Shown: positions 5,345 to 51,208 of the stretch, in pieces
How positions within the stretch are numbered: the first letter of the stretch is position 1
How the letters are laid out: each line of letters opens with the position of its first letter
Assembly (NCBI GenBank): GCA_021773355.1
Contig: JAJFKE010000002.1
Location: forward strand, 1 to 64,000
Length of the DNA stretch: 64,000 bases
Direction of reading: 5' to 3'
DNA from: Gammaproteobacteria bacterium
GTDB lineage: Bacteria > Pseudomonadota > Gammaproteobacteria > Pseudomonadales > Pseudohongiellaceae
Notes under the pieces: generated by a model
What the model was told of the DNA's origin: nothing
Seen by the model: only the letters and a program-made list of their open reading frames with translations
The model's database searches: none
Translations under genes and position numbers: made by a program

Positions 5345-7048
5345 CTAGTTTGATGGCGTGGCTGAATGGTAAGTCCAGTAGCCAATAAACATCTCATCCC
5401 AGCTCTGCAGTCCAAAAGTAAGTTCCTGACTCGGATCCGGATTAGCGGGATTGTACTGCGAATTATCAAAAGCTCCAGTCACGTGAACCTTGGTGCCTGC
5501 CTTAACTGTAACTGGCTGTTCCAGTTCATAAGTAGGCTGCCAAGCATAGCTGTAATTCGGCACGCTAAGCAGATCGGTCATGCTGCCATCTTCATTTTCC
5601 ATGGAAAACTTCATGTCCTTGCCACGGAAGTGCATATGAGCTCGCAATCCAGTTACCACTACGTCCTCATCGAACACATACTGTGCATGGGATTCATGAT
5701 CCTGCGCGTAGGCAGGAATCTTAAACTGTGAAGCCACTGAACGAGTGAAATTCTCATACTTCGGAGGCTCATCGTACATATACAAACCGAGAATGGTTTC
5801 GTCAGTAGTAGCCTTACCGTTGGTAGTGAAGTGAAACTGCATAGACAGTTTGTGTCCTTCAGGAATATAGACACCAGTATCCTCACGGAATGTCATGGCA
5901 TCTACCTTGCCCGGTGCATAGCCCTCAAGAAAGCGGCGCGCTACAGATGTTGTATTTGCCTCGCCACCGTCGAAGTTCTCGGCAGGCGCGGTAACATAGG
6001 TCAGCAAATGGTGAAGAACGGACTCATCACCAGGAATAAACTGAACCGCTTTTACCCACTTGTCTTCGGTGAAGGGCAACTCCACATCAACATCGATGTA
6101 GTCCAGAACGCCAGTAGCAGGAATCTCCATTTTCGGTGCCTTGACTATGTAGTCAGGCTCACCGAGGGCCCATTCTTTCCAGTTTGGCATTTCGATCTCT
6201 GTCAAAGGATCAATGGCGGCAGCGCCACGAGGCGAGCCAGCATCAATCCAGTGAACCAAGGTTTGTAAATCGGCATCGGTCATATAGCGAGCGTTGTTAA
6301 AATGGCCAATATTGGGATCAACCTGAGTAGGTGGCATGCGCTTGGTCAATAGTACTTCACGAATCATCGGTGACCAACCTTGCAACATAAGATGACTGTC
6401 CATAGCGAAAGGTCCGATTCCCCCTTCTCTATGGCAAGTAGCACATTGCTCTGCAACTATAGGTGCAACTTCTGTTGCGTAATCTGGTGTGGCGCTGGCG
6501 TGAGATTCCTTAACCGGAAATTGAAGATCACAGCCGACTGCGTCAACAATCATTGTGCCATCAACAGTACCTGCTAATTCGCTGGACAGTGTTGCCGACG
6601 CGCTGGAAACCGGGCCACGATAAATAAGTGTTAAACGCTCAGGGTCGAGAACGGCAATTTCGCCAGCTTTAGTCAAAGCCAGTGTTTCTGAAACGATTTG
6701 ACCGTCATCTATGAGCAATGGAAAATCAGAACCGAGTGTAGCCTTCGCTGCACGAATCGCATCTACGTCGGATTCTGCTGACGAATTAATCAAAGCAAAC
6801 GCTATCCCCTGCTCGCCCCATTGAGCCTGCATGGCTTGCAAGCTGGAAACTGCAGAATTGATCGACGCACAGCTGTTGTCATAAGACATCAATACTAATG
6901 CCTCTTTATTGCGGTAACGACTTAATTGATGGAAGTCACCATTGCTGTCCAACAAACCAAAATCTCCGATTCTATCTGGCACAGCGAGGGCTGCAGTAGA
7001 CAGTAGCGAAACGATTAAGGCTATTCCGATCACGGATAATCTATTCAT
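5345..7048 (-). CDS. Exported redoxin - cytochrome c - PHM-like copper protein (paralogue 1)
   Basis: A 567-residue protein with a signal peptide (1-22). Residues 25-150 are a redoxin fold with Cys60 in the NSCASI loop, and Cys173 lies in a VGCDLQFP linker. A c-type heme site CATCH is at 202-206 with likely axial Met238 (KRMPP). Residues about 300-560 match copper type II, ascorbate-dependent monooxygenases: HH at 346-347 and His406 for CuH; HMH at 471-473 and Met553 (DEM) for CuM. All ligands of the PHM/DBM two-copper site are present. Function is inferred as periplasmic hydroxylation or redox chemistry; the substrate is unknown. GGAG stands before the ATG. It is followed by paralogue 2 in tandem and has its own terminator. 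Confidence 0.85.
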   Translation of the reverse strand: MNRLSVIGIALIVSLLSTAALAVPDRIGDFGLLDSNGDFHQLSRYRNKEALVLMSYDNSCASINSAVSSLQAMQAQWGEQGIAFALINSSAESDVDAIRAAKATLGSDFPLLIDDGQIVSETLALTKAGEIAVLDPERLTLIYRGPVSSASATLSSELAGTVDGTMIVDAVGCDLQFPVKESHASATPDYATEVAPIVAEQCATCHREGGIGPFAMDSHLMLQGWSPMIREVLLTKRMPPTQVDPNIGHFNNARYMTDADLQTLVHWIDAGSPRGAAAIDPLTEIEMPNWKEWALGEPDYIVKAPKMEIPATGVLDYIDVDVELPFTEDKWVKAVQFIPGDESVLHHLLTYVTAPAENFDGGEANTTSVARRFLEGYAPGKVDAMTFREDTGVYIPEGHKLSMQFHFTTNGKATTDETILGLYMYDEPPKYENFTRSVASQFKIPAYAQDHESHAQYVFDEDVVVTGLRAHMHFRGKDMKFSMENEDGSMTDLLSVPNYSYAWQPTYELEQPVTVKAGTKVHVTGAFDNSQYNPANPDPSQELTFGLQSWDEMFIGYWTYHSATPSN

Positions 7049-7183
7049 TTTCGAGGCTCCAAAAGCTTTTTATCAACTCAGCAAGTTTAGCCGAAGCAAG
7101 CCAGAATAGGCAGCCTAAACTATTACTTTTTGTAACAAATAGAAAGTTTCGAGAAGCTTCTAGAATTCGAGTATTTCGCCCAC

Positions 7184-7207
7184 AAAAAAGGCCCCGAAAG
7201 GCCTTTT
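7184..7207 (-). terminator. Terminator after paralogue 2
   Basis: AAAAAAGGCC and GGCCTTTT pair around CCGAAA. On the reverse strand the stem ends in a T-tract. It lies about 23 bases beyond the stop of the 7230-8996 gene. Confidence 0.75.
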
Positions 7208-7229
7208 CCCTAATCTTTCAGTGCTAGTT

Positions 7230-8996
7230 CTAGTTACTCGTCTTGTTATAAGACAGATAGCCAATAAACATCTCATCCCAGCTCTGAGCGCCGCCGCGGA
7301 CCACTGCTGCAGGGTCTGGATTGCCAAGATTGTACTGAGAGTTATCGAAGGCACCTTCTATCATTACCCGAGAGCCGGCTGGCAATAGCATTGGCTCTGA
7401 AAGTCTATAGGTAGGCTGCCAGGCAAAGTTGTAGTCTGGCACGTTGATAATCTGATCCTTCGTACCATCAGGATAGATCACGCTGAAACGCATGCGCTTG
7501 CCACGATAATGCATATGAGGTCGTAAGCCATGAAGCATTACTTCGTCTTCGAATACATGAGATGCACTCATCTTATGATCGGCGACTCCCGGCTGAATCT
7601 CGATATTGCTGCCGCCATGGCTCAGTGAATAAGTTGAATACTGAAACTCGGGTTCATCATCGGCGAAGTACAATCCTAACTTGGTGCTGTCAATCGTCTC
7701 TTTGCCAAAGGTTGTGTAATGCAGAGACATTTGTACGGCGGAGCCCCTAGGCACGAACATGCCGGTATTTTCCGGATAGGTAGCTGCCTCATCCTTGCCT
7801 GGTGCATAACCTTCGAGGAACTCCCTGTAGTTATCGTTCTCGCCTTCGACTATTTCTTCGGCATAGTTAGCAGGAACAATATAGCTCAGCAAATGGTGTA
7901 GTACGCGGCGATCACCAGGTAAGTGTTGAACCGACTTTACCCAAACATCTTCTTCAAAGGGCAGATTGATAGTTACGCTCTCATAGTCCAACACGCCGGT
8001 GGCAGGGACCGTAAAAGCAGGAACATCGACTATATAATCCGGCTCGCCTAATTCCCAAACAGAATCTGGTGGCTCGATGAAAGTCAGTGGGTCTATTTCA
8101 CTTTGGCCCCGAGGTGATCCTGCATCTATCCAATGCACTAGCGTCTGCAGTTCCGCTGGGTCCATATAGCGTGCGTTAGTGAAATGATTAATGTTCGGAT
8201 CTACCTGCGCTGGCGGCATTCGCTTGGTCATCATGACTTCCTTCATCATGGGCGACCAACCCTGAATCATCATATGAGAATCCATTGCAAAGGGAGCTAT
8301 ACCCCCCTCTATGTGACAGCCTAGGCATTTTGCCTGCAAAATTGGGGCAACTTCCGTAGCGTAATCAGGAACAGCTTTAGCGTGGTTTTCTCGGGCTGGA
8401 AAGTTTAAATCACAACCAACAGCATCTGTTGTAATTGTGGAGTTTATAGAAGCCGCTTCACCGGCTACTGCCATCGCCAATACGTCTGCAAATATTGTGG
8501 TGCCTTCCCGTCCCTCGATGTCTAGTCCAGGCCTGGCTCGAATAGGGTCAATATCGAGTCCGCCGCGATACAAAACCTGACTGCGAGTGGGCTCAAGAAC
8601 TACAATTTCACCCGCCTTGCGCAGACCAAGACTTTCGGCGACGAGCTGACTGTCATCCAACAGAATAGGAAGATCAAAATTGTGTAGCTCGTCCATCAGG
8701 CGAATTTCAGCAAGACTATCGTCGTCAGCGGCGTTAATAGCCAGAAAGCTAACTCCCTGCCTTTCCCATGTAGTTCTTAGCAGTCGATACTTTGGTAGCT
8801 TCTCAATATTTTCCTGGCAATTGGCTGCAGTAGCGATAATAACCACGGCTTTGCTGTCGCCGTACTTTTGTAATTGATGATAGCTACCCTCGTGGTCAAT
8901 CAAGGCGAAATTACCGATTCGTTCAGCTCCAGCATGGGCCTGAAATGTGATTGCTGTAGAAAATGCAAACAATGCTATCGCGATAAATTTTTTCAT
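7230..8996 (-). CDS. Exported redoxin - cytochrome c - PHM-like copper protein (paralogue 2)
   Basis: A 588-residue protein with signal peptide 1-22 (ending in QAHA). The redoxin domain spans 24-150 with Cys60 (AANCQENI), then Cys195 (VGCDLNFP), the heme site CLGCH at 224-228 and Met260 (KRMPP). The copper domain has HH 367-368, His426, HMH 494-496 and Met576 (DEM), so both copper sites look complete. GAAGG stands before the ATG. It is collinear with paralogue 1, with which it forms a tandem pair 181 bases apart, each with its own terminator. The gap to HupE suggests separate control. The likely place of action is the periplasm, since heme c attachment happens there. Confidence 0.85.
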   Translation of the reverse strand: MKKFIAIALFAFSTAITFQAHAGAERIGNFALIDHEGSYHQLQKYGDSKAVVIIATAANCQENIEKLPKYRLLRTTWERQGVSFLAINAADDDSLAEIRLMDELHNFDLPILLDDSQLVAESLGLRKAGEIVVLEPTRSQVLYRGGLDIDPIRARPGLDIEGREGTTIFADVLAMAVAGEAASINSTITTDAVGCDLNFPARENHAKAVPDYATEVAPILQAKCLGCHIEGGIAPFAMDSHMMIQGWSPMMKEVMMTKRMPPAQVDPNINHFTNARYMDPAELQTLVHWIDAGSPRGQSEIDPLTFIEPPDSVWELGEPDYIVDVPAFTVPATGVLDYESVTINLPFEEDVWVKSVQHLPGDRRVLHHLLSYIVPANYAEEIVEGENDNYREFLEGYAPGKDEAATYPENTGMFVPRGSAVQMSLHYTTFGKETIDSTKLGLYFADDEPEFQYSTYSLSHGGSNIEIQPGVADHKMSASHVFEDEVMLHGLRPHMHYRGKRMRFSVIYPDGTKDQIINVPDYNFAWQPTYRLSEPMLLPAGSRVMIEGAFDNSQYNLGNPDPAAVVRGGAQSWDEMFIGYLSYNKTSN

Positions 8997-9320
8997 CTTG
9001 TTAACCTTCAGTAAAGAACACTACGACAGAGAATAGGAGGTGCAGCTAGGCCCTAAATTGCCAAGCTCGGACATACTCCCCCGCCAGCATTTGTATACTG
9101 GCAATACTGTTCAAAAATTGATTGACTCTATAATAGTAAGCTTAGCGCAAAGCCTTTGTCAGAAGGTACCAAAACTCTGCCCAGCTTTGTGACAAATTGA
9201 AACTGTAGAGGCAGCTTGCAAAGGAAATATATTATTTTATATCAATAGCTTGCGTTAAAGAAAGCTAGCTCCAACTGGTATCCGCGGAGTTTGCTAAAGT
9301 GCCTATTCGACGCTCGGAAA
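8997..9320. other. Gene-free stretch upstream of paralogue 2
   Basis: Only the promoter of the 7230-8996 gene is expected here. A short inverted repeat GCCAG/CTGGC (9083-9102) encloses GTATACT, which resembles the repeated AGTATACT element at 10.8 kb. No gene was recognised. Confidence 0.5.
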
Positions 9321-10700
9321 CTAACTCTCGGTATTACGACTGGTTCCGTAGCTGGATATGTTCTCAACCAGAGCGTAGCGTCGAAAAATTTCATACATCC
9401 CCCAGAGTACCAACCCAATAAATATCAGCATCATGCTCCAACGCATCAATCCCGCGAAGAAGATCGAATCCAGAATCGGCATTTGCAGTTGAAATTGCGT
9501 CAAGCTAGTGCCCCGGTCCAACATCCAATGCCATGCACTATGTGCCAGCAGCGCGGACAACAGAATCGTCCCAATTCGTTCTTGCACGAAGTAGCGAAAC
9601 AAAATATTTAGCAACGGAATGACTAACAGCAGCACCAGAATTTGGCCCAGTTCTACTCCAACATTAAAGGCTAACAGCGATGAAAATAAATGACCCCCAG
9701 CAAACTGCAAAGTGTCACTAAACAAGAACGAAAAGCCAAAACCGTGCACCAAACCGAAACCAAATGCAGCCACCCAACGATGTTCCAACTTCGCGCCGAT
9801 TATATTCTCAAAGGCCATATACACTATTGAGAGCGCAATCAGCGTCTCAATCAACGGCGGAAACCACAGCGAGTTGGGAGCCATTCCAAAGGCGGAGCTA
9901 ATCAGGGTTATTGAGTGCGCAATGGTGAACGAAGTAACAACCGGGATAAGTGCGCGTATGCTGCGCAGCGGAATCACCAGGCAGAATAGAAACAACAGAT
10001 GGTCAAGTCCTTCTAAAATGTGCTCGAAACCCATTTGCACAAATCGAAATGCTGCTTGGTGCCAACGTGGATCCAATTGCACCAAACCTGGGTTGCCCAA
10101 ATAATTAAAAACGCGCTCGGCACCGCCGGGGACAAGGAAGCGCAATACTGTAGTGGTCTGATTGGATAAGGTACCTATCTCCGGATTAACCGAGAATTCC
10201 GACTGATCGGAATTGATCGGGTAGGTCACCATGACATCCAGTACCCCCTGCCGCCAGAACAGGTCAACAGAATCATCCAGAGCCGGACTTAGAATATTCT
10301 CAAGAGCACCCTCGTAGGTGGTAAAGGAACGATTAGACGGTAGCGATACCCTAACCGTTTCCAATTGCTTCTGTGTTAATTCTTCGCCGTTCTCATAGAA
10401 GTGAATAGATTCAGTGATATACACGCGAGCAGCATCGTTCAGCGCAAACTCCGCTTCAGCGAATTGTAAGTAACCAGGCCCTCTTAGTGGAAAGCTAATC
10501 TCGCTAAACGCCTCCATGGGAACTCGTATTAAAGCAGTGAGCTGGCTCCCTTCTGGTTTGACAAATGCATATACAGTGACACGACTGGGAATGTCATGTG
10601 CTACTGCCAGTGCGGGAAATAATATTGCTGAAACAAGCACGCAGGAAGCCAGCAAATTTCGCACTGTGAGTGACCTTAAAACTAAGCAGAATTCATTCAT
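9321..10700 (-). CDS. HupE/UreJ-type membrane protein with periplasmic N-domain
   Basis: A 459-residue protein: a signal segment (about 12-35, ending AVAHD), a periplasmic domain to about residue 225, then about six or seven membrane helices. The membrane part carries the HupE/UreJ_2 signature GFEHILEGLDHLLFLFCL near 230, a TIAHSITLI helix, and GLVHGFGFSFLF. These conserved histidines are thought to handle metal in the family, classically nickel or cobalt; copper is a guess from context. The ATG at 10700 lacks a ribosome site. A GTG at 10664 has AAGGT before it and gives a cleaner signal peptide, so it may be the true start. It is divergent from the PAL-like gene across a repeat-bearing promoter region. 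Confidence 0.75.
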   Translation of the reverse strand: MNEFCLVLRSLTVRNLLASCVLVSAILFPALAVAHDIPSRVTVYAFVKPEGSQLTALIRVPMEAFSEISFPLRGPGYLQFAEAEFALNDAARVYITESIHFYENGEELTQKQLETVRVSLPSNRSFTTYEGALENILSPALDDSVDLFWRQGVLDVMVTYPINSDQSEFSVNPEIGTLSNQTTTVLRFLVPGGAERVFNYLGNPGLVQLDPRWHQAAFRFVQMGFEHILEGLDHLLFLFCLVIPLRSIRALIPVVTSFTIAHSITLISSAFGMAPNSLWFPPLIETLIALSIVYMAFENIIGAKLEHRWVAAFGFGLVHGFGFSFLFSDTLQFAGGHLFSSLLAFNVGVELGQILVLLLVIPLLNILFRYFVQERIGTILLSALLAHSAWHWMLDRGTSLTQFQLQMPILDSIFFAGLMRWSMMLIFIGLVLWGMYEIFRRYALVENISSYGTSRNTES

Positions 10701-10840
10701 AATTTCTTATTAATAGTTAATACTTTCAATTAGATAGCCAGCGAGCTACGGGAGTAGAAAACGGGCTTGACGGAGACCTTAAAAGTGCCGCCTTAGGCCT
10801 GTTACAAATACTTACACCAAGCCTCCTGGAAATTTGGCCT

Positions 10841-10897
10841 GTGAGTATACTGTCTCCAAAGAAGTGAGTATACTCGGCCTTGCTCTGAGAGTATAAA
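10841..10897. promoter_or_regulatory. Three direct repeats spaced exactly 23 bp, putative operator
   Basis: GTGAGTATACT occurs at 10841 and 10864, and a weaker copy GAGAGTATAAA starts at 10887. All three are 23 bases apart. The core AGTATACT is its own reverse complement. The array lies in the divergent region between the HupE-like and PAL-like genes, 36 bases before the latter's ATG, and looks like iterated binding sites for a dimeric regulator. No regulator gene is adjacent. Confidence 0.55.
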
Positions 10898-10932
10898 CCC
10901 CCCGCTATTCGGGCATTTGGAGGAAAATAAGA

Positions 10933-12126: not shown

Positions 12127-12150
12127 AAACTCTTTAGAGCGAAACAAACT

Positions 12151-12186
12151 AAGCCGTATCGAAGTAATTCGATACGGCTTTTTTGT
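12151..12186 (+). terminator. Terminator of the PAL-like gene
   Basis: AAGCCGTATCGAA and TTCGATACGGCTT form a perfect 13-bp stem with a GTAA loop, followed by TTTT. It lies 25 bases after the stop. Confidence 0.92.
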
Positions 12187-12432
12187 GTCATACGATCACA
12201 ACCGATTGGTCTGAGGGTAGGGTTTATACACTTTCAAATAGATAGTTTGAGATACTTTCAGTAAAACTTCAATGCTGAATATCCAGTATTAAGTTCTGGT
12301 TCATACGCCATGCTTGATCATGTATTGCAGGTCAATTATGCTCAGACTCCGAAACCGCAATGTGGCTGTTTGACAGTAAATAGCAATTTGAAATAACCGT
12401 GATTTATTTAGCGATAAGAGATTAAGACTTCT
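12187..12432. other. Gene-free leader of the 12433 gene
   Basis: No gene seen. A perfect -35-like TTGACA occurs at 12370-12375, but the hexamers at the expected distance (ATAACC, TAACCG) match a -10 poorly, so no promoter is claimed. Confidence 0.4.
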
Positions 12433-13008
12433 ATGAAAATCCGATATTTGTTTTCACTAAGCATTGCCTGCATTAGTTTGTTTGCCGTCCCTGCAATCGC
12501 CGTAGAGGACATAGTAGTCAGTTACAAGGCCGAAGGCAGCCCGCGCGCAAATCTCAGCAACATGAAAATCGATTTGCGAATCGCCGAGTTTACAGATGGC
12601 CGGTCCGTAGATAACCCACGCCTAATTACAGACGCGATGCTGCTTGGTGCAGATGGCGGCTTTCAGGCTGAGAAAGCGCTTTCTGAAATAATTCGGGAGG
12701 CCATGAAGGAGGGTTTTGCCAACGCGAACGCAAAGTTGGTAGAGACGGGTGGCGACATGTATTTGCAAGGCAATCTACTCTCCACTGAAGCGCAGATAAT
12801 TGACCGTGCCGGTGTAGAAACCATTCAGCTTACGCTACGTACTTCGGTGCAACTCATGAGCGGAAGTCGAACCATATGGCAGACCACATTGTTTGGACGA
12901 GGCAGAACAGCTGCCAGTGAAGGCATGGCTGTCACGGTTCGTGCAGCACTGACTAGACTCATCAACGAGCTTATTGGGGATGATTATTTCCTCGCTGAAA
13001 TTCGTTAG
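12433..13008 (+). CDS. Periplasmic protein of unknown function
   Basis: A 191-residue protein with a signal peptide (1-23, ending PAIAVE). The mature part has a pattern of alternating strands and a long helix (KALSEIIREAMKEGFANANAK), then LYLQGNLLSTEAQI-like strands. The layout resembles YajG-type or other small periplasmic lipoprotein-like folds, but there is no lipobox cysteine and no motif that settles the family. It is transcribed convergently with the nuclease-fold gene, the two stops being about 20 bases apart. I do not recognise it with confidence. Confidence 0.55.
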   Translation: MKIRYLFSLSIACISLFAVPAIAVEDIVVSYKAEGSPRANLSNMKIDLRIAEFTDGRSVDNPRLITDAMLLGADGGFQAEKALSEIIREAMKEGFANANAKLVETGGDMYLQGNLLSTEAQIIDRAGVETIQLTLRTSVQLMSGSRTIWQTTLFGRGRTAASEGMAVTVRAALTRLINELIGDDYFLAEIR

Positions 13009-13027
13009 AGCATTTCCACGATACCCA

Positions 13028-31374: not shown

Positions 31375-32211
31375 CTACTGCGGTGGGTTACCGCGAGGTG
31401 TGCCAGGCTTACGCCACTCACCGTAGAGATACTCTTCTGCAAACTCCGCACACTTGAATTCAAGCAATTGCATATTTTCATCTACGTGTCGGTAAAGTGG
31501 AAAACTTATCTTCCATGGACTGGTGAAGGTATTTGGATCGGTAATGGTGGCTTCATAATTAATATGATTAGCGCCAGTAGCAGTCCAACGCTCTTCAACT
31601 ACCATTTCATAGCTATGGTGATTGCCAGAACGGTCAAACCAGGTATCTGGCATCTGACCGGAAACACGCACCACCAAAGTATCACCCTCCCAATGTGCAT
31701 TGGAATGACCCATCCAGGCATCAACTTGCGACTCAAGCTCTGGCTGATCTACGTACAAAATTCGATTTGATTCAGCCATTTCGTAGGCAATAAGAATCAC
31801 ACTCTGGGATTGAACGATCTGAAACGGGAATGGCAGATAGTTAGCGCGAGGAACACCAGGCATATAGCATTTAGCCAATGGATCACTTTCTATTGCGTTG
31901 GCCTTATTCGTATCTCGCACTCGTCGTGCTTGTTCGTTGTAAGGAATTCGCCCACCATCAACAATACCCAAGCCTGCCGGTGTGGCAGACAAGGCGCCGA
32001 ATAAGCCCGGATGTGGACCTTCCGACGCTGCATGAGGCTCGACATTATAGTGCGCAGATGTCATGGCTTGCCATATGCCGCTGAGATCGGGTTTCCCACT
32101 GGGTGTGCGAACTATTTCGCCACTCTGCGCTACCGCCTGCGTAATCACAAAAAAGCCTGCCAATATTACCAGCACAGTTCTTGCTATGGTTTTTTCAATT
32201 TTAGTTTTCAT
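31375..32211 (-). CDS. Secreted PDLSGIW-type protein, unknown function (copy A)
   Basis: A 278-residue protein with a signal peptide (about 1-28, TQAVAQS). After it come GKPDLSGIWQ and then KCYMPGVPRANYLPFPFQI, an ILIAYEMAESNRILYVD strand, and HWEGDTLVVRVSG / DRSGNHHSYEMVVEERW. This architecture is widespread in secreted proteins of marine gammaproteobacteria and acidobacteria, but I know no assigned function. GAAGGG precedes the ATG. It is a divergent tandem paralogue of copy B 90 bases upstream and has a terminator. A lipocalin-like beta fold is likely from the strand pattern, though this is a guess. Confidence 0.7.
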   Translation of the reverse strand: MKTKIEKTIARTVLVILAGFFVITQAVAQSGEIVRTPSGKPDLSGIWQAMTSAHYNVEPHAASEGPHPGLFGALSATPAGLGIVDGGRIPYNEQARRVRDTNKANAIESDPLAKCYMPGVPRANYLPFPFQIVQSQSVILIAYEMAESNRILYVDQPELESQVDAWMGHSNAHWEGDTLVVRVSGQMPDTWFDRSGNHHSYEMVVEERWTATGANHINYEATITDPNTFTSPWKISFPLYRHVDENMQLLEFKCAEFAEEYLYGEWRKPGTPRGNPPQ

Positions 32212-32301
32212 TTACTGCCCTTCAATTATTTTGCTATCTAACAACTAAGTTTACTCATGCAAAGAACATTGCGATCAAAGCGTGTCCCTCGCCTTCATTT
32301 T

Positions 32302-33336
32302 TTATTGAGCGCCGCTTTCGCCTTCCCTGCGTTCTTCTACACGCATACCACGCAGAATGTTAAACATTCCGTAGTTTCCTTCATGGCATGCATATTCATA
32401 AAGCTGACCAGCAACTTTAGTCATGGGCACGACAGCGGTAATCTTGTCGGTAAAGGTAGAAGGGTCATCGATAGTGAACTCATAGTCCACAGTATCAAAC
32501 GCAGTTCGTGTGAATTTTTCTGTCAAGACCATATCTGTGTTTTCGCCCGTGCTACTAAATGTCTGGCGCAGTCCGTTAAAATTCTTGGTTTCGACGATTA
32601 AGCTATCACCTTCGTACCAACCACGTGAATCACCAGACCAGAGTCTAATATCTTCAGTTAACGCAGGCTTATCACCAAGTGTAACTATGCGAGCATCATG
32701 GATCATTTCTGTCAGGATTACCGCTGTATCTTTACCTTGAAAGATTTGAACATTATTGTTGTAGAGACTGGGTGTGAACGGCGGCCCTGAGTTAAAACCG
32801 ACCAAGCAACGTTCCGATAATCCCCTATCTTCGGGGCCATCTTTTGCGATGCCACCCACTACATAGCGCACTGGCCTAGTACCAGGAATATCTGGACCTA
32901 ATCCACCGAATTGTCGCTGAGCACCTTCCACTGCTGCAGGAATACGACCATTGGGTGGGTACACTATATGGGATGTTCTGACAGTATCGCCAATACCAGC
33001 GCTTTCGAACCAGAAGTCATTGTATCCACCTGGATTGTCGGTAGCTTCAGGCGCGTCCGGGTCTATCACTAACTGCGCTGCTGCGGCATCCGCTGCAGCT
33101 GCGGCCGCTTGCTGTCGCGCAACTGCGGCCCGAATCTGTTCCTGGGTAAGGAATTCTTGTTCGCCGTATCGCTCGGCCCGTTGCATCGGCGTATTCGAGC
33201 TAAAGTTCCATACACCTTGCAAATCTGGCTGGCCGTACTCAGTTTTAGGCACCTGATAAACGTCATTGCCCTGGGCTGCCGCAAACCCGCAAAATCCAGC
33301 AAACAATGAGAAAACTATTAGTAGTCGAGATTTCAT
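32302..33336 (-). CDS. Secreted PDLSGIW-type protein, unknown function (copy B)
   Basis: A 344-residue protein with a signal peptide (MKSRLLIVFSLFAGFCGFAAAQ). It shares with copy A the start GQPDLQGVWNFSS, the CLVGFNSGPPFTPS stretch followed by VQIFQGKDTAVILTEMIHDARIV, and WYEGDSLIVETKNF. It has an additional alanine-rich helix (about 90-108, RQQAAAAAADAAAAQLV) absent in A. The start at 33336 is chosen because GGGGGG precedes it and the signal peptide follows; 33393 would add a poor N-terminus. The same strand and 90-base spacing suggest a joint transcript with copy A. Confidence 0.7.
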   Translation of the reverse strand: MKSRLLIVFSLFAGFCGFAAAQGNDVYQVPKTEYGQPDLQGVWNFSSNTPMQRAERYGEQEFLTQEQIRAAVARQQAAAAAADAAAAQLVIDPDAPEATDNPGGYNDFWFESAGIGDTVRTSHIVYPPNGRIPAAVEGAQRQFGGLGPDIPGTRPVRYVVGGIAKDGPEDRGLSERCLVGFNSGPPFTPSLYNNNVQIFQGKDTAVILTEMIHDARIVTLGDKPALTEDIRLWSGDSRGWYEGDSLIVETKNFNGLRQTFSSTGENTDMVLTEKFTRTAFDTVDYEFTIDDPSTFTDKITAVVPMTKVAGQLYEYACHEGNYGMFNILRGMRVEERREGESGAQ

Positions 33337-33542
33337 TTCGCCCCCCTTAGGGTTAATCCTGCTGAGGTCGTAACTTAGAGGTTTCACGCCCAAGAATCAA
33401 TAGATATGCGGCCAATTCCTGCGCTTTTCAGTTAACAGGACCGCTTATTTAGCGACATTGATAGCGCGGTTAAAATCCTGTACGAGACTCTATATATCTG
33501 GCTAATAGCACACTAAAGTGACATTGGTGATAGGCTCGCTTG

Positions 33543-40574: not shown

Positions 40575-40651
40575 TATCCACCTCGAGACAAAATAGTATT
40601 TAAGGCAGCATCCTGTGTCGGTCATACTTAACTTGTAGTAATTAAAAATAG

Positions 40652-42199
40652 TCAAAGCTGGTTGATGATCTCAGCAAAACGTTGGTTTACCGGATAGCTA
40701 CCTGCGGTCCAACCAAGGCGCACAATTATTAGGGAGCCTCTGAACAAGTCTATGGCCACTCTGCGGGAGTCTGGTGCACACTGCTGCAGCGTCGTGCACC
40801 AGGCCTCGCCCGAAGGGGCCTACAGCCAATCCCGCTCTCTGCGTTGCACTTTCTTGACAGGCCCGGCGAAAGTACGTCTTGATAGCAGAATTGGCTGTAG
40901 GCCAGAGAGATCATAGACTTGTTCAGAGGCTCCTAAATCCATTGAGGGAATCACCATCAGATATTGCTGCCTGTTCCCCTGTGCAGAATAGGCATCCTCG
41001 GGCAGGTCTTGCCAGCGCAGATTTTCATCTCCTCGATTTAACCACCACTGATATCCATAGGCCTTTTCGTTATCGGAAGTATTCGGTGTAGTTGCCCGTC
41101 GCACCCAGTCTTCACTCATTATTCGCTGCCCGTTTAAGCTGCCTCCATTCAGCATCAACTGACCAATACGGCCGCAGTCTCTGGCTGAAGCGTAGAGATA
41201 GGAACTACCTATGAACACAGCACTGGCATCAACTTCAAACACCGCGTTTTGAAAACCCAATGAACGATGGATGTTATTCATAAAAGCATCATAGCCCGCT
41301 TGATAGCCGCCGTTGCTCTAAACGTATAGCCATGAAAGTAAATTGGCCGTGCCCGAACTGTAATTGAAACGGCTGCCCGGGCTATGCAATGCAGCCTTGC
41401 CCGACACATATTCAGAGGAAGAAGGCTCAGTAAACAACATGGCTGTGGCATCGTCCCCTGGATTGTATTCTTCTGAAAAGGCTAGGCCGTCAGCCATAGT
41501 TAACATGTCGCTAATACGAATTTTAGATCGCTCATCACTCTCCCACGCAGCGAAACCCGGAGTTTCATTCAGATTCAATCGCCCCTGAAATTCAAGATTT
41601 GCCAACATAATTGAGTTTAAGCTTTTCGCCATTGACCAGCCAAGCAGCGGGGTATGAGCATCGGCACCCTGACCATAAGCTTCTGCCAGCACATTGCCAT
41701 CTTGCACCACCAGCAAGGCACGGGTATTCAACCCCAAGCTATTATCGGTGCTCAGTTGTTCCTGCAGCAGACTATCTATTTTTGCATGACTTGCAAAGAC
41801 AGTATCCCCGGCGGGCCAAGCCTGCTCAGAAGAGGCTACTTGTATTGTTTGCAGAGAAGCGCGCTGTGTGTATCCGTCATAGTCAATCGCGCAGCCTATA
41901 CCTGGTAAATAATTTGCAGTTTTCTCACTTAATCCGAACAAGGAAGTGGTTACCGTCTTCTGGTTTTCGTCATACTCGACTGTGAGTTCCCGCAATATTC
42001 CAGAATATTGCAGCAGATCATCGAAGGCCTGTTGCTGGGAAAACCCGGACACATAACGCGCACTGCAGAGTAATTTCGAATCAATACCGGTGGCCACACC
42101 CGGAGCACTAATCAGGTAAGAAGGAGGAAACCCAGAAAATGAAGCCAGGCCTAATGCGAGCCCTAAAACCATTAACAGAATTAGAAGAAGTTTTTTCAT
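40652..42199 (-). pseudogene. Serine hydrolase (beta-lactamase class C family), broken by an amber codon and a MITE
   Basis: The ATG at 42199 opens with a signal anchor and continues to the SxxK nucleophile motif (SMAKS). In-frame TAG at 41318-41320 stops it after SWLYV, yet the same frame continues SNGGYQAGYDAFMNNIH through YGYQWW to PSMDL at 40936. There a 202-bp element interrupts it, and the tail IIVRLGWTAGSYPVNQRF... ends in TGA at 40652. Removing the element with one TA restores MDLIIVRLG in frame. The two lesions make a functional full-length product unlikely; a shorter product from 41281 could still be made. The original enzyme was probably an exported esterase, peptidase or beta-lactamase-like hydrolase. 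Confidence 0.85.
40732..40933. mobile_element. 202-bp MITE-like element with 22-bp terminal inverted repeats
   Basis: The ends at 40733-40754 and 40912-40933 are perfect 22-bp inverted repeats beginning GGAGCCTCTGAACAAG. The element is flanked by TA on both sides (40730-40731, 40934-40935), consistent with a 2-bp target duplication. Inside, a second 14-bp inverted repeat (40817-40830 with 40890-40903) and GGTGCAC/GTGCACC hairpins add fold-back structure. There is no transposase gene; the ends resemble IS5-group or Tc/mariner-like termini, but the mobilising family is not determined. It interrupts the serine hydrolase gene. Confidence 0.85.
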
Positions 42200-42253
42200 G
42201 ACTAACTTTCCCATTTTTAGGAATAGCAAAGAGTTAGTTCTTCATAAAATTTA

Positions 42254-44818: not shown

Positions 44819-44912
44819 GAAATTCTGTTATCTCGACCACCAGGAACAGCCACCACATAACGAATCTCATATGGGTGGCAGAGTTCTCATCGATCGCAGG
44901 CGAATTATCTGG

Positions 44913-46679
44913 CTACCTGGAATCACTGTAAAAGGTAAAATAGCCGGTAAACATTTCTTCCCAGCTTTCCAATCCAAAGCTTACTTCTTTGGAAGCATCT
45001 GGATTCGAGGGGTTTGATAGTGAGTTATCGAAGGCTCCGATTACGCGCAGAATACTGCCAGCTGGAACAGATTCTGCCCGGTCTAACAAATAGTGTGGCT
45101 GCCAGCCATAATTGTAGGCAGGAATGCTGAACAGTTCTTTAACAGTGCCGTCCGCATACTCCACCGCAAATTTCATTCGCTTGCCACGAAAATTCATTCT
45201 GGCCCTGACACCGGTTATTACTACATCCTGATCTAATTTATGTTCTGCCTGAAGATCAAAATCATGCGCATTAGGCGGCAGCAGGAAACGCGATGCAACA
45301 GCCTGGGTTAGCTTTTCCTTGAGCTCAGGCTCATTGCTGAAGTACAAACCAAACTGTGTTTCATCTACGGCAGCCTGACCATTGGTCACATAATGAAACT
45401 GCATAGAAAGCTTGTGACCTTTAGGGATTAATACTCCTGTGCCCGGATCAAATTCAACGGCGTTACTTTTGCCGGGCAGGTAACCCTCCACAAAGCGGCG
45501 GGTTACAGAGATGCTTTCTCTCTCGAATCCCCAAAAATCTTCATCGGGCCCTGTCACGAATGTCATTAAATGGTGCAGCACCGACTCGTCACCGGCTTTG
45601 TACTGCACCGCTCTGATCCATTTGTCCTCAGTAAAAGGTAATTCAACATCATCGTAGACATAATCCATGACGCCGATAGCAGGCACTTCATTTTTTGGAC
45701 CCGTTACTATGAAGTCGGGTTCACCGAAAGCCCATGCTGAGTTGTCCGCCACCTGAAAAGTTTCCAAGGGATCCGTTTCGCCACCTCCCCTAGGTGCGCC
45801 TCCATTTATCCAATGGATCAAAGTTTGTAATTGCTGCGTCTGCAGATACCGAGCTCCATCAGAATGTCCAATATAAGGATCTACCTGGGTCGGAGGCATG
45901 CGTTTATTCAGCAACACCTCCTTAATCATAGGAGACCAGCCCAGCACCATGATGTAGCTGTCCAAGGCGAAAGGCCCGACACCACCCTGTCGATGACACT
46001 GAGCACAGTTTTCAATAATTATAGGCGCTACCTCAGTGGCGTAATCGGGAGCAGATTGCGCATGCCTCTCTTTAACAGGGAATTCGATAGGGCAATCAGA
46101 ACCAGCCAGACGCAGGGTATCGCTAACACCCTCGCCTTTTATAGAGGCCAATATAGAGTCGAGCTCTTGCGAGGCTTGTCCTTTAAAGAACAGGGAGAGT
46201 CGTGCGGGATTTAACACCAACACATCACCGGCGCTGGCAATGTTTAGAGTTTCGGATACCAATTGGCCATCGTCCTCGAGAATCGGGAAGCCGGTCTGCA
46301 GCCTATTTAAATCAGATCGGCTCTGATCTTGGGTATCGATTAATAAAAACTCAAAATCTTCCCCTGAATATTTTTTAGCGATGTCATTATATGCAGCAAG
46401 CAAAGAGTTCATCGCACTGCATTCTTGTGCATAGGCCATAATGACCACTGCTTTTCGATGCTGGTAGCGGCTTAGTTGATGGAAGGTTCCGCTATTATCG
46501 AGCAAGGCAAAATCGCCAACGCGATCGAGTGCCGCCGAAGCAGCGAAGGAGAAAACACAAAGCACTAATCCGCAGACAAACTTCAAGCCCGGGTTTCTTA
46601 TTTGGCGCTTGACTGATTTTGCGCAACTGCCTATTAAACGATATTGATTAAGTTCCACTGCAAAACATCCCGATTTCAT
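44913..46679 (-). CDS. Exported redoxin - cytochrome c - PHM-like protein with lost CuM histidines (paralogue 4)
   Basis: A 588-residue protein. The redoxin domain has Cys87 (AQECSAMN), and the linker Cys196 (GSDCPIEF) is present. The heme site CAQCH is at 225-229 with Met261. CuH ligands HH 369-370 and His429 are kept, as is Met576 (EEM). At the CuM position, however, the usual HMH reads RMN (Arg494, Asn496), checked on the DNA (AGA ATG AAT). It is the only one of six PHM-like proteins here with this loss. The signal peptide begins late: an ATG start gives a 32-residue basic region first. An internal TTG near 46583 would give a cleaner signal but lacks a ribosome site. Confidence 0.82.
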   Translation of the reverse strand: MKSGCFAVELNQYRLIGSCAKSVKRQIRNPGLKFVCGLVLCVFSFAASAALDRVGDFALLDNSGTFHQLSRYQHRKAVVIMAYAQECSAMNSLLAAYNDIAKKYSGEDFEFLLIDTQDQSRSDLNRLQTGFPILEDDGQLVSETLNIASAGDVLVLNPARLSLFFKGQASQELDSILASIKGEGVSDTLRLAGSDCPIEFPVKERHAQSAPDYATEVAPIIIENCAQCHRQGGVGPFALDSYIMVLGWSPMIKEVLLNKRMPPTQVDPYIGHSDGARYLQTQQLQTLIHWINGGAPRGGGETDPLETFQVADNSAWAFGEPDFIVTGPKNEVPAIGVMDYVYDDVELPFTEDKWIRAVQYKAGDESVLHHLMTFVTGPDEDFWGFERESISVTRRFVEGYLPGKSNAVEFDPGTGVLIPKGHKLSMQFHYVTNGQAAVDETQFGLYFSNEPELKEKLTQAVASRFLLPPNAHDFDLQAEHKLDQDVVITGVRARMNFRGKRMKFAVEYADGTVKELFSIPAYNYGWQPHYLLDRAESVPAGSILRVIGAFDNSLSNPSNPDASKEVSFGLESWEEMFTGYFTFYSDSR

Positions 46680-47050
46680 GCCTGAATCAACTCAGGCCTA
46701 ATTTTCAGCCAATACTATAGCACTTAGATATTTTCGACTTGCATGACATGTAAACGACATCTAAATCAGTCTGCCATAACCCACCCCCCGAAAAACTTCG
46801 GGAATCCTCTCATACAAGTGACGATGCTGACAATTGGGATACTTGTTACATTTTGTTTAAATCAAGCCCTCTAGCCTGCGGTTTTCCGGCTGCTTGGAAC
46901 TAGACTCGAAGAACAATGAAGTTTATCCTAGCGTCCCTGTTTGAATGGATTCAACAATCTAGAATAAACTTCTTTCTTCGCTTTGCAGATATCTAAAAAG
47001 CAAGAGAGAAAAATCGAATTTATCGAACCTGATTTTTGGAGAGAACATCG
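46680..47050. other. Gene-free divergent region with possible FNR-like box
   Basis: Between paralogue 4 and the secreted Ig-like gene. TTTGTTTAAATCAA (46852-46865) has one perfect FNR/Anr half-site (ATCAA) and one poor half, so it is a weak candidate. A structured element at 46918-46972 is listed separately. No gene seen. Confidence 0.45.
46918..46972 (+). other. Nested stem-loop in the leader of the 47051 gene
   Basis: GAAGTTTATCCTAG (46918-46931) pairs with CTAGAATAAACTTC (46959-46972) with one mismatch. Inside, TTGAAT-GG-ATTCAA (46941-46954) forms a second hairpin. The T-rich TTTCTTCGCTTT follows, so on the plus strand it could work as an attenuator or early terminator 79 bases before the start codon. 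Confidence 0.5.
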
Positions 47051-47989
47051 ATGCGACAGTTTCACAGAACAATTGCGCTATTAGCCTTCGGCCTAACAGC
47101 GGTTTTTAGCCTTCAGGCACAAGCCCAATCTGCAGACAATGGCCGATTTCTAAGCCTTGCGCCACCAACTGGTCTGCCCCTTATCCCCGTCATGGAAGGC
47201 TGGATAGCTAATCCGGACGGTACCACCAGTTTTTCTTTTGGTTTTATCAATAGAAACGAAGAGGCGTTAGACATCCCGCTGGGCAGCAACAACTACATCG
47301 AGCCAGCCAAATACAGTGGCATGCAGCCCACACACTTCCCCGCAGGTCGTAGCACTGGCATGTTCACCGTGACTGTTCCTGCTGATGAGGCGGGTAATGA
47401 TGTATGGTGGTATGTCAAAACCGGTACGGCGGAAACATTGAAGGTACCTGGTCGACGCGGAGCCTCTGCTTATGAGTTGGATTTTATCCTTCCGCGGCCA
47501 CAGGGTTCTTTGCAGCCCCTCGCCGGTTTTGGTGAAAACGGTGCCAGATCTGCCGGCCTATTGGCCCAGGTAGGTGAATTCTCAGGCCGTGTAACTGCGG
47601 GTGAGCCGGTAGTGCTTACGGTCAATGTAGAAGACATCTCTGATCGCGATCCTGCCGATCCGCGCTTTGGTGAGCCTCTAGCACTCGGCGTGCACTTCTC
47701 CAAATATCAGGGTCCTGGCGACGTTACATTTGAACATCACGAGACTACTGTTATCCCAGAAAATCCTTATGATGAAGATGACCGCCGTTTCCGTTTTTTC
47801 CAAGCTATTGAGCCCGGTGACGTACAAGTTGAAGGCGGTAGCGGTATAGCCCATGTTATCGCGACATTTTCAGAGCTTGGTGAATACATGATTCACACCA
47901 AGATTGAAAATTTCAAAGCTCCTGACAGCTCAAACGGCGATCAGTGCTGCTGGAGCAACATCATCCAAAAAGTCACGGTTTCTCCCTAG
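47051..47989 (+). CDS. Secreted two-domain Ig-like protein, unknown function
   Basis: A protein of about 312 residues with a signal peptide (ending LQAQAQS). Residues about 35-140 (GWIANPDGTTSFSFGFINRN...) and about 175-290 (SGRVTAGEPVVLTVNVEDIS...) form two beta-sandwich, fibronectin- or Ig-like domains. Asp-rich stretches and a C-terminal QCCWSNIIQKV with a Cys pair are notable. The ATG at 47051 is chosen because GGAGAG precedes it; a TTG at 47036 is also in frame but lies within that site. It lies beside redoxin-heme-copper and compact heme-copper genes and may be a partner of them. The family is not recognised. A strong terminator follows. Confidence 0.65.
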   Translation: MRQFHRTIALLAFGLTAVFSLQAQAQSADNGRFLSLAPPTGLPLIPVMEGWIANPDGTTSFSFGFINRNEEALDIPLGSNNYIEPAKYSGMQPTHFPAGRSTGMFTVTVPADEAGNDVWWYVKTGTAETLKVPGRRGASAYELDFILPRPQGSLQPLAGFGENGARSAGLLAQVGEFSGRVTAGEPVVLTVNVEDISDRDPADPRFGEPLALGVHFSKYQGPGDVTFEHHETTVIPENPYDEDDRRFRFFQAIEPGDVQVEGGSGIAHVIATFSELGEYMIHTKIENFKAPDSSNGDQCCWSNIIQKVTVSP

Positions 47990-48043
47990 AGACCCCGATT
48001 TTACTGACTCCGCGGCCTGATTGAGAAGTTTGATCGCAGCACT

Positions 48044-48076
48044 AAAAGGGGAATTCATGATGAATTCCCCTTTTTT
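48044..48076 (+). terminator. Terminator of the Ig-like gene
   Basis: AAAAGGGGAATTCAT and ATGAATTCCCCTTTT pair almost end to end, followed by TT. It lies about 55 bases after the stop. Confidence 0.93.
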
Positions 48077-48202
48077 GTAGATAGCCCCACCAGAATTGTC
48101 TAATTTTAAGCCGAGTCAGTGTTTCAATTTGTTGCAATGATTACCCGAAATGAACCGTAATAGATGGACTTTTGGGGTGGTCCCCATTACCATTTTGGAA
48201 TA

Positions 48203-48221
48203 ACTAAAAGTACCTTTTAGT
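48203..48221. promoter_or_regulatory. Perfect palindrome upstream of compact heme-copper gene A
   Basis: ACTAAAAG-TAC-CTTTTAGT is fully symmetric and lies just before a GATTTAyTGATCCAA stretch (48225-48239) that recurs upstream of gene B. CTGATCCAAATCAT (48231-48244) is a weak FNR-like match. The palindrome differs from the FNR box of gene B at about the same place. Confidence 0.5.
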
Positions 48222-48282
48222 ATAGATTTACTGATCCAAATCATAAAAATAGTACTTATGACTCTCAATTGAGGAGAAAAGC

Positions 48283-49653
48283 ATGAAAACAGTGCAAGGT
48301 TGGAGTAAGAAAGTCCGTGTTTGGACTGCTCTGGTAGGCGGCGCGGTACTCGCGTTTGGTCTGCAAGCAAATGCTCAAGACGACCAAATCACCTACAACA
48401 GCCACGTCGCTAAGATCATCAACGAGAACTGTGTTGTATGTCATACAGAAGGTGGCATTGGACCCATGCAGCTCTCTAACTACGATCAGGTCCGTCCTTG
48501 GGCGCCATTGATCCAACTGCGAGTTGCAAATCGTGAAATGCCTCCTTATGCCTATGACCATGGTATTGGTATCCAGGACCTTCAAGGTGACTGGCGTCTT
48601 GATCAGGACGAGATCGATACCGTAGTAGCCTGGGTAAATCAGGGCTCACCTCTGGGTGATGCCGATATCGTTCCCCCGGCTGCAGATATACGTGATCCGA
48701 ACGAATGGAATTTTGCTGCCCAGTACGGTCAGCCAGATTTGATCGTTCCTTCCACGCCTATCGATATTCCTGCGAATGGCAATGACCTGTGGCATAAGCA
48801 CTATGTAGACACTGGTGTAACTTCTGACCGCTGTATTAAAGCTGTTCAGGTTAAGCCTCGTGGCGACGCCAAGGCAGTTGTGCATCACGCCAACTCTGAT
48901 GTTGAGTCTATGGACGAGAATGGCGAATATCAGCCTTTCGGCCAGTTAACTGAGTATGCGATGGGTAAATGGGGCGAAATCGTTCCTGAAGGCGTATGTC
49001 GCACATTACCAGCTAATTCGCGCGTATCTTGGGATATCCACATGTTCCCAGGTGGTGTAGGTGCAACTGCTCCTGGCACTATGATCAAAGACAACGTTGT
49101 TGAAATTGGCCTTTGGTTTCACGATGAAGACTTTATCGCGACTACCCAGCCTTATAAGCAAGACTTGAAACTGTATCAACTACGAGGTGGTTACGAGAGT
49201 GGTCAGCTTATCGTTCCCCCTAATGGCTACACCATGACTCAGGGTTTTCATTCTTTCGATCACCCGGTTCGTATTGACAGCTTTCAACCACATGGTCACC
49301 TGCGCATGAATGCTGCGTCTCTGGAGGTTTTCTACCCAGAAACAGGCCGCACTGAGCAAATTAGCCAGATTTCTAAGTGGAGCGCTACTTGGCACCATAG
49401 CCACCTGTATCAGCCAGATGCTGCACCTCTGCTACCTACAGGCGCTGTTCTAGTTATCAAACAGTGGTACGACAACACAGCGAACAACCCCAATAATCCT
49501 GATCCTGATCAGTGGGTTGTGGGCGGAAGCCGCACCGGTGACGAAATGTCACATGCCTGGATCGCGGTCACTCACCTGGATGACGATGGTTACGAGAAAA
49601 TCGTTGCCGATCGCAAAGAGAAAGAAGAACGCTCTATAGCCGGTAACGACTGA
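48283..49653 (+). CDS. Compact exported cytochrome c - PHM-like copper protein A
   Basis: A 456-residue protein with a signal peptide (about 1-32). There is no redoxin domain. The heme site CVVCH is at 50-54 (GGIGPMQL follows), with Met86 (REMPP) as likely axial ligand. Copper ligands are HH 201-202, His253 (IHMF), HGH 337-339 and Met422 (DEM), a complete PHM-type pair. A WHHSH cluster near 370 replaces the WQPTY of the larger paralogues and adds histidines. Cys184 and Cys239 may pair. GAGGAG is before the ATG, and a strong terminator follows. It is a tandem duplicate of gene B. Confidence 0.86.
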   Translation: MKTVQGWSKKVRVWTALVGGAVLAFGLQANAQDDQITYNSHVAKIINENCVVCHTEGGIGPMQLSNYDQVRPWAPLIQLRVANREMPPYAYDHGIGIQDLQGDWRLDQDEIDTVVAWVNQGSPLGDADIVPPAADIRDPNEWNFAAQYGQPDLIVPSTPIDIPANGNDLWHKHYVDTGVTSDRCIKAVQVKPRGDAKAVVHHANSDVESMDENGEYQPFGQLTEYAMGKWGEIVPEGVCRTLPANSRVSWDIHMFPGGVGATAPGTMIKDNVVEIGLWFHDEDFIATTQPYKQDLKLYQLRGGYESGQLIVPPNGYTMTQGFHSFDHPVRIDSFQPHGHLRMNAASLEVFYPETGRTEQISQISKWSATWHHSHLYQPDAAPLLPTGAVLVIKQWYDNTANNPNNPDPDQWVVGGSRTGDEMSHAWIAVTHLDDDGYEKIVADRKEKEERSIAGND

Positions 49654-49689
49654 TAGCCTAATCTGACTTTTCTCCAGAAGGACAGAGGG

Positions 49690-49722
49690 CCGGTAAATCT
49701 TGGATTTACCGGTCTTTTTTTT
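49690..49722 (+). terminator. Terminator of compact gene A
   Basis: CCGGTAAATC and GATTTACCGG pair around TTG, followed by TCTTTTTTTT. It lies 37 bases after the stop and separates the tandem copies. Confidence 0.95.
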
Positions 49723-49791
49723 GTTACAAAATGCCATACATTAGCCCTTTTTCTGCTTTTTCCATGAAGCAAAAAGAGGTAGACTTTGAAG

Positions 49792-49805
49792 TTGATTTAA
49801 ATCAA
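49792..49805. promoter_or_regulatory. Perfect FNR/Anr box before compact gene B
   Basis: TTGATTTAAATCAA matches the consensus TTGAT-N4-ATCAA exactly. Its centre lies 63 bases before the ATG at 49862. A class II FNR promoter would place the -10 near 49828 (TACCTA), which is weak but usable. This suggests control by oxygen limitation. The box is established for FNR-family regulators; its use here is inferred. Confidence 0.65.
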
Positions 49806-49861
49806 TTTTTGGGATTTATTGATCCAATACCTAGCAAAGCACGATCCAACAGGAGAGATTT

Positions 49862-51208
49862 ATGAGTATTTCAAAAGGCTGGTTAAGCCTCGCAGCGCTT
49901 GCCGCAGCTGGGTTTCAGGCTCAGGCTCTGGCTCAATCAGATGCCAACCACGAAGTCACCTATAACGGTGAAGTCGGGAAGATCATCAATGAGAACTGCG
50001 TAGTTTGCCATCGTGAAGGTGGAATCGGCCCTATGCAACTCACCAATTATGATCAGGTTCGCCCTTGGGCACCCCTGATTCAACTTAAGGTAGCATCTAG
50101 AGAAATGCCTCCTTATGCCTATGACCACGGTATTGGCATTCAAGATCTCGAAGGCGACTGGCGTTTAGAACAATCTGAAATCGACGCTATCGTAGTGTGG
50201 GTAAATCAGGGCTCACCCATGGGTGATGCCGATGTGGTCGTGCCAATGCCTGAATTAAATGATCCTAGCGAATGGAACTTCGTGAGCCAATTTGGCGAGC
50301 CAGATCTAATCGTTCCTTCGATTTCCATGGACATTCCTGCCAATGGTAACGACTTGTGGAGTAACCACTACGTTCCAACAGGATTAACTGGTGATCGCTG
50401 CATCAAGGCGGTTCAAGTGAAGCCAAGAGGCGATGCAAGAGCCGTTGTACACCATGCTAACTCATCTCTGGTATTGCCTCAGGACGATGGCGATATGGAA
50501 CGCTATGGCATGCTGACCGAATATGCCATGGGCAAGTGGGGCGAGATTGTTCCTGAAGGTGTATGTCGAACTATCCCAGCCGGATCTCAAGTGAGTTGGA
50601 GTATCCACATGTTTCCTGGCGGTGTTGGCGCAACAGCTGAAGGCCAGATGATTAAAGACAACGTAGTTGAAATTGGTCTTTGGTTACACCCTGAAGATTT
50701 TGTAGAAACGGCTAGCTACAAGCAGGATCTCAAGCTGTACCAAATCAGCCCACAAGCAGATATAGCCATTCCACCAAATGGCTATTCAATGACTCAGGGG
50801 TTTCACTCTTTTGATCACCCAGTGCGTATCGATAGTTTTCAACCGCACGGCCATCTGCGCATGAATGCTGCCTCACTAGAGATTTTCTATCCCGAAACAG
50901 GCCGTACTGAACAGATCAGCCAAATCTCCAAGTGGAGTGCTACCTGGCATCACAGCCACATCTATGATCCTGATGTAGCACCTCTATTGCCTGCAGGTGC
51001 TGTGCTGGTATTGAAGCAGTGGTACGACAACACAGCTGACAATCCCAATAATCCTGATCCTGATATGTGGGTAATGGGCGGCAGCCGCACTGGTGATGAA
51101 ATGACTCACGCCTGGCTTGCTGTAACTCACCTTGATGATGAAGGTTTTGATAAACTGGTTGCTGAACGCAAAGAAAAGGAAGAGCGTTCATTAGCGGGTA
51201 ACGACTAA
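49862..51208 (+). CDS. Compact exported cytochrome c - PHM-like copper protein B
   Basis: A 448-residue protein with a signal peptide (1-24, ALAQS). The heme site CVVCH is at 46-50, Met82 (REMPP); copper ligands HH 197-198, His249, HGH 329-331 and Met414 (DEM). Nearly every motif of gene A recurs, often at DNA level (for example the PPYAYDHGIGIQDL segment), showing a recent tandem duplication with mild divergence. GGAG precedes the ATG. An FNR box sits upstream, and a shared bidirectional terminator lies downstream. Periplasmic oxidation with a heme-to-copper electron path is a reasonable inference. Confidence 0.86.
   Translation: MSISKGWLSLAALAAAGFQAQALAQSDANHEVTYNGEVGKIINENCVVCHREGGIGPMQLTNYDQVRPWAPLIQLKVASREMPPYAYDHGIGIQDLEGDWRLEQSEIDAIVVWVNQGSPMGDADVVVPMPELNDPSEWNFVSQFGEPDLIVPSISMDIPANGNDLWSNHYVPTGLTGDRCIKAVQVKPRGDARAVVHHANSSLVLPQDDGDMERYGMLTEYAMGKWGEIVPEGVCRTIPAGSQVSWSIHMFPGGVGATAEGQMIKDNVVEIGLWLHPEDFVETASYKQDLKLYQISPQADIAIPPNGYSMTQGFHSFDHPVRIDSFQPHGHLRMNAASLEIFYPETGRTEQISQISKWSATWHHSHIYDPDVAPLLPAGAVLVLKQWYDNTADNPNNPDPDMWVMGGSRTGDEMTHAWLAVTHLDDEGFDKLVAERKEKEERSLAGND

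Follow-up and report, generated by a model that had tools for sequence, protein, structure and literature searches.

Could a bacterium hold a counterpart of the enzymes with which animals amidate peptide hormones, wired to heme? In animals, PHM starts peptide-hormone amidation and PAL is the second enzyme of the process. The question is raised by a 64,000-nt stretch of contig JAJFKE010000002.1 (hereafter, the window), from an uncultured gammaproteobacterium of the family Pseudohongiellaceae, in which an original prediction had named seven open reading frames (ORFs), P0001–P0007: six for PHM-like proteins and one, P0003, for a PAL-like propeller. All seven ORFs are open and lie where the prediction put them. 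Our best explanation, held with slightly more than even confidence, is that the locus encodes heme-fed periplasmic copper monooxygenases, coupled in one gene module (module A) to a PAL-like lyase and accompanied in another (module B) by a partner protein that lacks the CuM copper site.

Of the six PHM-like proteins, five have the complete set of predicted copper ligands, HH, H, HxH and M. All six share HH, H and the final M, and with them the three histidines of the CuH site; the His-x-His and Met of the CuM site are present in P0001, P0002, P0004, P0006 and P0007, while P0005 has RMN in place of HxH. The predicted fusion to c-type heme held throughout, with CxxCH and a distal Met (KRMPP or REMPP) in every window protein. 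A profile search of the 5.08-Mb genome returned 23 PHM matches, corresponding to 20 ORFs once split ones were merged; the six predicted proteins are therefore part of a larger set. Across these 20 paralogs the mean column identity is 31%, and 24 columns are invariant, including C202, C205, H206 and M238 of the heme region, followed by H346, H347, H406 and M553. H471 and H473 are near-invariant, the exception being P0005. Of the 20 paralogs, 19 retain the full set of six ligands even where identity to P0001 drops to 23%, and the conservation of ligands and heme exceeds chance. In the wider alignment, 163 of 169 matches were full length, and dropping 18 duplicates left 145 distinct rows. CxxCH and the distal Met occur in all 145, and no other metal motif is present in every row.

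A profile built from the six window proteins matched dopamine beta-hydroxylase (DBH) at E 7e-4, with the six ligands in the same columns. Structure prediction, proposed earlier as a check, placed a PHM fold over both subdomains of P0001 in a single model (built from six sequences, pLDDT 75.2), P0001 being the only PHM-like protein of the window that was modelled. P0001 is likewise the only window protein above the Pfam Cu2_monoox cut-off (P0002 reached 22.1 of 23 bits), and 6/20 paralogs match this family at E 0.01. The four long proteins carry the redoxin-like N-terminal domain that had been predicted, with Pfam AhpC-TSA above cut-off in each. None of the four has a CxxC in this domain, and its single cysteine is shared by 41 of the 71 long rows; we rejected a role as a thiol enzyme because the cysteine is not conserved. 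By eye, most N-termini of the PHM-like proteins look like signal peptides, which suggests export, and the fused heme probably feeds electrons to the copper domain.

Counting the window's own genome each time, PHM matches were found in 23 of 39 genomes of the family at E 1e-20 (2 to 23 apiece), in 8 of 116 of the order at E 0.001 (one of them just a short and weak match) and in 3 of 397 of the phylum at E 1e-20; the phylum scans scored at most four candidates per genome. In record titles, near relatives appear under OM182, Pseudohongiella, Pseudomonadales and, in addition, SAR86. The heme fusion extends beyond this bacterial family: five genomes from elsewhere supplied six homologous ORFs, and CxxCH is present in every one. 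In the class, three genomes besides the window's own have a Cu2_monoox_C match. A tblastn search of plasmids with P0001 gave no match. Separately, two genomes have tandem PHM-like matches that start past the heme region (G041 C1:371161-375691 and G098 C1:148199-152616); the tandems include one separate heme-region match whose frame contains a stop, and they may be heme-less copies.

The RMN of P0005 is not an isolated change. In the 145 rows, 105 have all ligands and 39 have R/K-x-N/S at the CuM pair; the remaining row, L141, has an alignment gap at the Met, where re-examination showed the residue to be present. Because many CuM-less rows were fetched by likeness to P0005, the 39 give no frequency. 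P0005 and 29 relatives have R-x-N in 29/30 cases and K-x-N in one. All 39 CuM-less rows keep the heme motif and an Arg/Tyr (R/Y) substrate pocket; three also have altered CuH ligands and two an altered Met. In a 56-row tree of a quick type (thinned at 80% identity, motif columns removed, SH-aLRT as the only support), its 20 CuM-less rows make up one side of a branch with SH-aLRT 100, next to PHM1 (P0001). The CuM-less clade has a single origin. It appears to be one old branch in which heme was retained and the catalytic copper site was lost. Of 21 pairs of CuM-less genes, dS could be measured for 14, and the ratio of nonsynonymous to synonymous rates (dN/dS) in these was 0.04–0.09; seven of the 14 have dS above 1.8, and the seven with dS below 1.2 gave 0.06–0.09. 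Such low values indicate that the CuM-less protein is under purifying selection, in relatives at least. A decaying gene was considered for P0005 and rejected, given intact ORFs, one clade and low dN/dS among relatives.

P0003 is a six-bladed NHL propeller, which is the fold of PAL. Its R77, H134 and Y205 align with PAL R533, H585 and Y654 (5wm0 numbering); we take R533 and Y654 to be the catalytic residues and histidines 585, 690 and 786 to be the zinc ligands. The three PAL-like histidines of the original prediction are present as H134, H254 and H351, but only H134 could be aligned residue by residue; H254 and H351 are likely to occupy the places of the other two zinc ligands, judging by their order and the aligned range. 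At the place of PAL M784, P0003 looks to have Ala. Two other sets of propellers were observed: ORFs on Nitrospirae/Nitrospira contigs (L069–L078), mostly of about 980 amino acids (aa) and with 24–31% identity to P0003, and a further, distant PAL-like propeller with 24% identity in the module A of another genus (L079:14154-15356, L085:12793-13914).

The gene order of relatives separates the window into two modules, and the view of the six proteins as one 46-kb system was rejected on this ground. Module A, in the order hyp776-birA-PHM-CstA-HupE-PAL-hyp12433, is found again at five loci, all in one other genus (L079, L085–L088), with HupE not called in L085 and birA not called in L088. CstA adjoins a heme-PHM gene at these five loci and in L092, a locus of the window's genus; in L092 and the window it lies outside PHM. 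HupE adjoins PAL in L079, L086, L087, L088 and L092, and a gene that by eye is EF-Tu-like lies near module A in L079, L087, L088 and L092. In the tree, the other genus has its module A PHM in a different subclade from PHM1–PHM3 (P0001, P0002 and P0004). Thus, the linkage of PHM and PAL outlived the turnover of the PHM gene itself.

On the proposed check for co-occurrence, PHM and PAL are linked inside the family, and no such pairing was found beyond it. Of 22 genomes with a PAL of at least 450 bits, 20 have, among the PHM matches listed, one within 6.1 kb of such a PAL, and in the other two (G124, G119) the PAL lies at a contig end. Counted by gene, 24 of 33 such PALs have a listed PHM within this distance. 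A PAL of at least 450 bits is present in 22 of 23 PHM-positive and 0 of 16 PHM-negative genomes of the family (best PAL score among the 16, 435 bits), for which Fisher's test gives 4.5e-10, a value that is invalid as a count of independent events and rests on a 450-bit line chosen afterwards. Two further PAL-PHM pairs are found in the window's genome, on contigs C16 and C47, with gaps of 1.3 and 0.5 kb and with PHMs from compact subclades. No listed PHM lies near the PALs at C16:456974 and on C45.

For module B we chose loci (L125–L139) in which PHM genes lie close together. The orphan family of the 47036 gene, a compact PHM and a CuM-less PHM occur together in 11 of these 15: L125–L130 in one other genus, and L131, L132, L134, L135 and L139 in the window's genus. 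L137 and L138 have no CuM-less gene, L133 has the compact PHM alone, and L136, from a third genus, has the orphan and the compact PHM with no CuM-less gene. Amide hydrolases and peptidases had been offered as fitting neighbours. They are absent from the conserved blocks of other genera, and we discarded them as members of the system since neither the five other-genus module A loci nor the module B loci contain them; L092, of the window's genus, does have an amidohydrolase after PHM3.

The substrate pocket varies among the proteins. R240, Y318 and N316 of rat PHM are, we assume, the anchors for the glycine carboxylate. At the R240/Y318 places, P0001, P0002 and P0005 have R/Y, P0004 has G/F, and P0006 and P0007 have Q/W; the R240 place is also taken by E, L, M, A, H or F. 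N316 has an equivalent in none of the six window proteins. These differences point to several substrates.

In the proposed scheme, the five dicopper proteins would act as periplasmic copper monooxygenases of the PHM/DBH superfamily. The fused c-type heme would draw on the respiratory chain's periplasmic electron carriers and pass electrons to CuH, replacing ascorbate, and CuM would activate O2 and then hydroxylate a C-H bond. The hydroxylated product of module A would pass on to the PAL-like propeller, whose role would be to cleave a carbinolamide, or some comparable geminal hydroxy compound, so as to give an amide and an aldehyde or keto acid; CstA is a candidate importer of a product. Module B would comprise two compact enzymes together with the orphan protein and the CuM-less paralog. 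Because this paralog keeps heme and the R/Y pocket and has lost the CuM histidines, its most probable role is that of a partner for binding or electron passing and not that of a catalyst. The most likely role of the family is that of heme-fed C-H hydroxylases for several substrates, some of them coupled to a PAL-like lyase. A narrower version is possible, and we put it forward tentatively: an ascorbate-free counterpart of amidation, in which a heme-c-wired PHM hydroxylates periplasmic N-acyl or N-alkyl amides, a PAL-like zinc propeller frees the amide and the CuM-less paralog serves as a heme/CuH subunit for binding or for passing electrons. Its strictest form, true peptidylglycine amidation of C-terminal glycines, would fit the R240/Y318 equivalents of P0001 and P0002 and the adjoining PAL-like gene, yet N316 is not kept and R240 is absent from P0004, P0006, P0007 and the module A of another genus; we consider it improbable.

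Several observations weigh against the coupled scheme. The residue alignment of P0003 to PAL is weak (E 0.016), none was obtained that places the second and third zinc histidines on H254 and H351, and its structural match to PAL ties with non-lyase NHL propellers (31.8). Nine of the 33 PALs of at least 450 bits have no listed PHM within 6.1 kb, four loci (L083, L084, L089, L091) show PAL with no PHM in 18–19 kb, and only about four of the genome's 20 PHM genes have a PAL-like gene within 3 kb. The association within the family reflects few evolutionary events and the post hoc 450-bit line. Outside the family, a close PAL was found in none of five PHM genomes (two have weak NHL matches), and for 19 genomes of the phylum in which PAL reached E 1e-60, PHM was found, in the same sample, only in the window's own; the pairing is therefore a trait of this lineage and not of the PHM family. 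birA and, at several loci, EF-Tu-like genes share the block, so a slow pace of rearrangement might be enough to keep the genes linked even if no function ties them together. On the PHM side, R240/Y318 equivalents occur in two of the five dicopper proteins, the module A pocket differs by genus (R/Y vs A/W), the sequence search of PDB chains that found DBH found no PHM chain, and 7 of 21 dN/dS pairs are saturated, including all six with the window's own copy. Of these points, the five outside genomes with PHM and no close PAL, the 18 of 19 phylum genomes with PAL and no PHM, the varied pockets and the housekeeping genes in the block favour a reading in which the heme-PHM proteins act as copper monooxygenases on a range of small organic molecules and the propeller is an unrelated neighbour, such as a lactonase or binding protein, kept beside birA; the imbalance between 20 PHM copies and only five PAL-like genes of at least 400 bits would fit it too. 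That reading accommodates poorly the extra pairs on C16 and C47 and the known PAL residues kept in P0003, and we judge it rather unlikely. Less probable still is that the proteins are periplasmic copper or heme redox carriers, or copper stores, on a PHM fold. A clade that keeps the fold without the catalytic site would suit such a role, as would heme being the sole motif kept in every row, but the retention of six ligands in nearly all paralogs is not obviously needed by a store or a carrier.

Table 1. Features of the two modules in the window
Feature	Position	Strand	Remarks
CstA family transporter	3219..5024	-	Pfam CstA 1.1e-130; conserved module A neighbour
PHM1 = P0001	5345..7048	-	redoxin-like part lacking CxxC, then c-heme and complete dicopper PHM domain; pocket of R240/Y318 type
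PHM2 = P0002	7230..8996	-	layout of PHM1, six copper ligands present, R/Y pocket
HupE/UreJ-type permease	9321..10700	-	Pfam HupE_UreJ_2 2.4e-41; head to head with PAL-like gene; module A
PAL-like NHL beta-propeller = P0003	10933..12126	+	
Small protein, family unassigned (LptE-like score below cut-off)	12433..13008	+	conserved after PAL
PHM3 = P0004	14270..16015	+	redoxin-like, c-heme, dicopper PHM domain, G/F pocket
PHM4 = P0005	44913..46679	-	redoxin-like, c-heme, CuH ligands; CuM HxH replaced by RxN (conserved clade)
Orphan protein, no Pfam/NCBIfam match	47036..47989	+	module B partner gene of compact PHM
PHM5 = P0006	48283..49653	+	compact: c-heme and dicopper PHM domain, Q/W pocket
PHM6 = P0007	49862..51208	+	compact: c-heme and dicopper PHM domain, Q/W pocket

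Elsewhere in the window, adjacent ORFs of 153 and 303 aa (40820-42229) each match the Beta-lactamase-type serine hydrolase family. L131 and L137 have a single ORF (454 or 452 aa) at this place, so the window's copy looks split. Two proteins at 31375-33393 start with PDLxG(I/V)W and lack a firm Pfam assignment; next to the PAL-like gene on contig C45 lies a homolog (65%) of the 32302 protein (L084:7660-8661).

The PHM fold, c-type heme and the propeller are each familiar, and we did not meet their combination in the literature searched. No heme-fused or bacterial PHM was found there, which is weak evidence, as the search ran over titles and the beginnings of abstracts, in part over the top 10 to 20 of many matches. 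A review of peptidylglycine amidation mentions eukaryotes only, its main text having no word that begins with 'bacteri', 'prokaryot' or 'archaea' (PMC6529398). A bacterial parallel is methylguanidine demethylation by MgdH and MgdL, a hydroxylation followed by a lyase step, which its authors compare with PHM and PAL; according to that report, MgdH is a 2-oxoglutarate iron dioxygenase and the lyase shares no sequence homology with PAL (PMC12508155).

The likeness of the window proteins to the PHM of animals and algae lies in the fold over both subdomains, in the CuH and CuM ligands of five of the six, and in the R240/Y318 equivalents of two of the five dicopper proteins. They differ in having c-heme fused in front, in not keeping N316, and in being bacterial and present in many copies per genome; in addition, rat PHM has disulfides, whereas the PHM domain of P0001 has no cysteine. 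With this lineage, amidation chemistry would gain a root or a branch among bacteria. P0003 resembles PAL in its propeller fold and three aligned residues, and differs in being a separate gene of a type mostly found without PHM in the sampled genomes. DBH, whose PDB chain was found by sequence, has a DOMON domain where the window proteins have heme c. The CuM-less clade, with heme and mostly CuH kept, would be a natural single-site variant, a native protein on which to test electron flow between the coppers. In cytochrome-fused bacterial lytic polysaccharide monooxygenases (LPMOs) and in fungal pairs of cellobiose dehydrogenase and LPMO, a heme domain likewise feeds a copper monooxygenase; these systems differ from heme-PHM in their one copper, other fold and polysaccharide substrates. 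A lineage whose genomes hold up to about 20 proteins of the PHM fold, every one with a heme of its own, would provide an alternative answer to how PHM is supplied with electrons.
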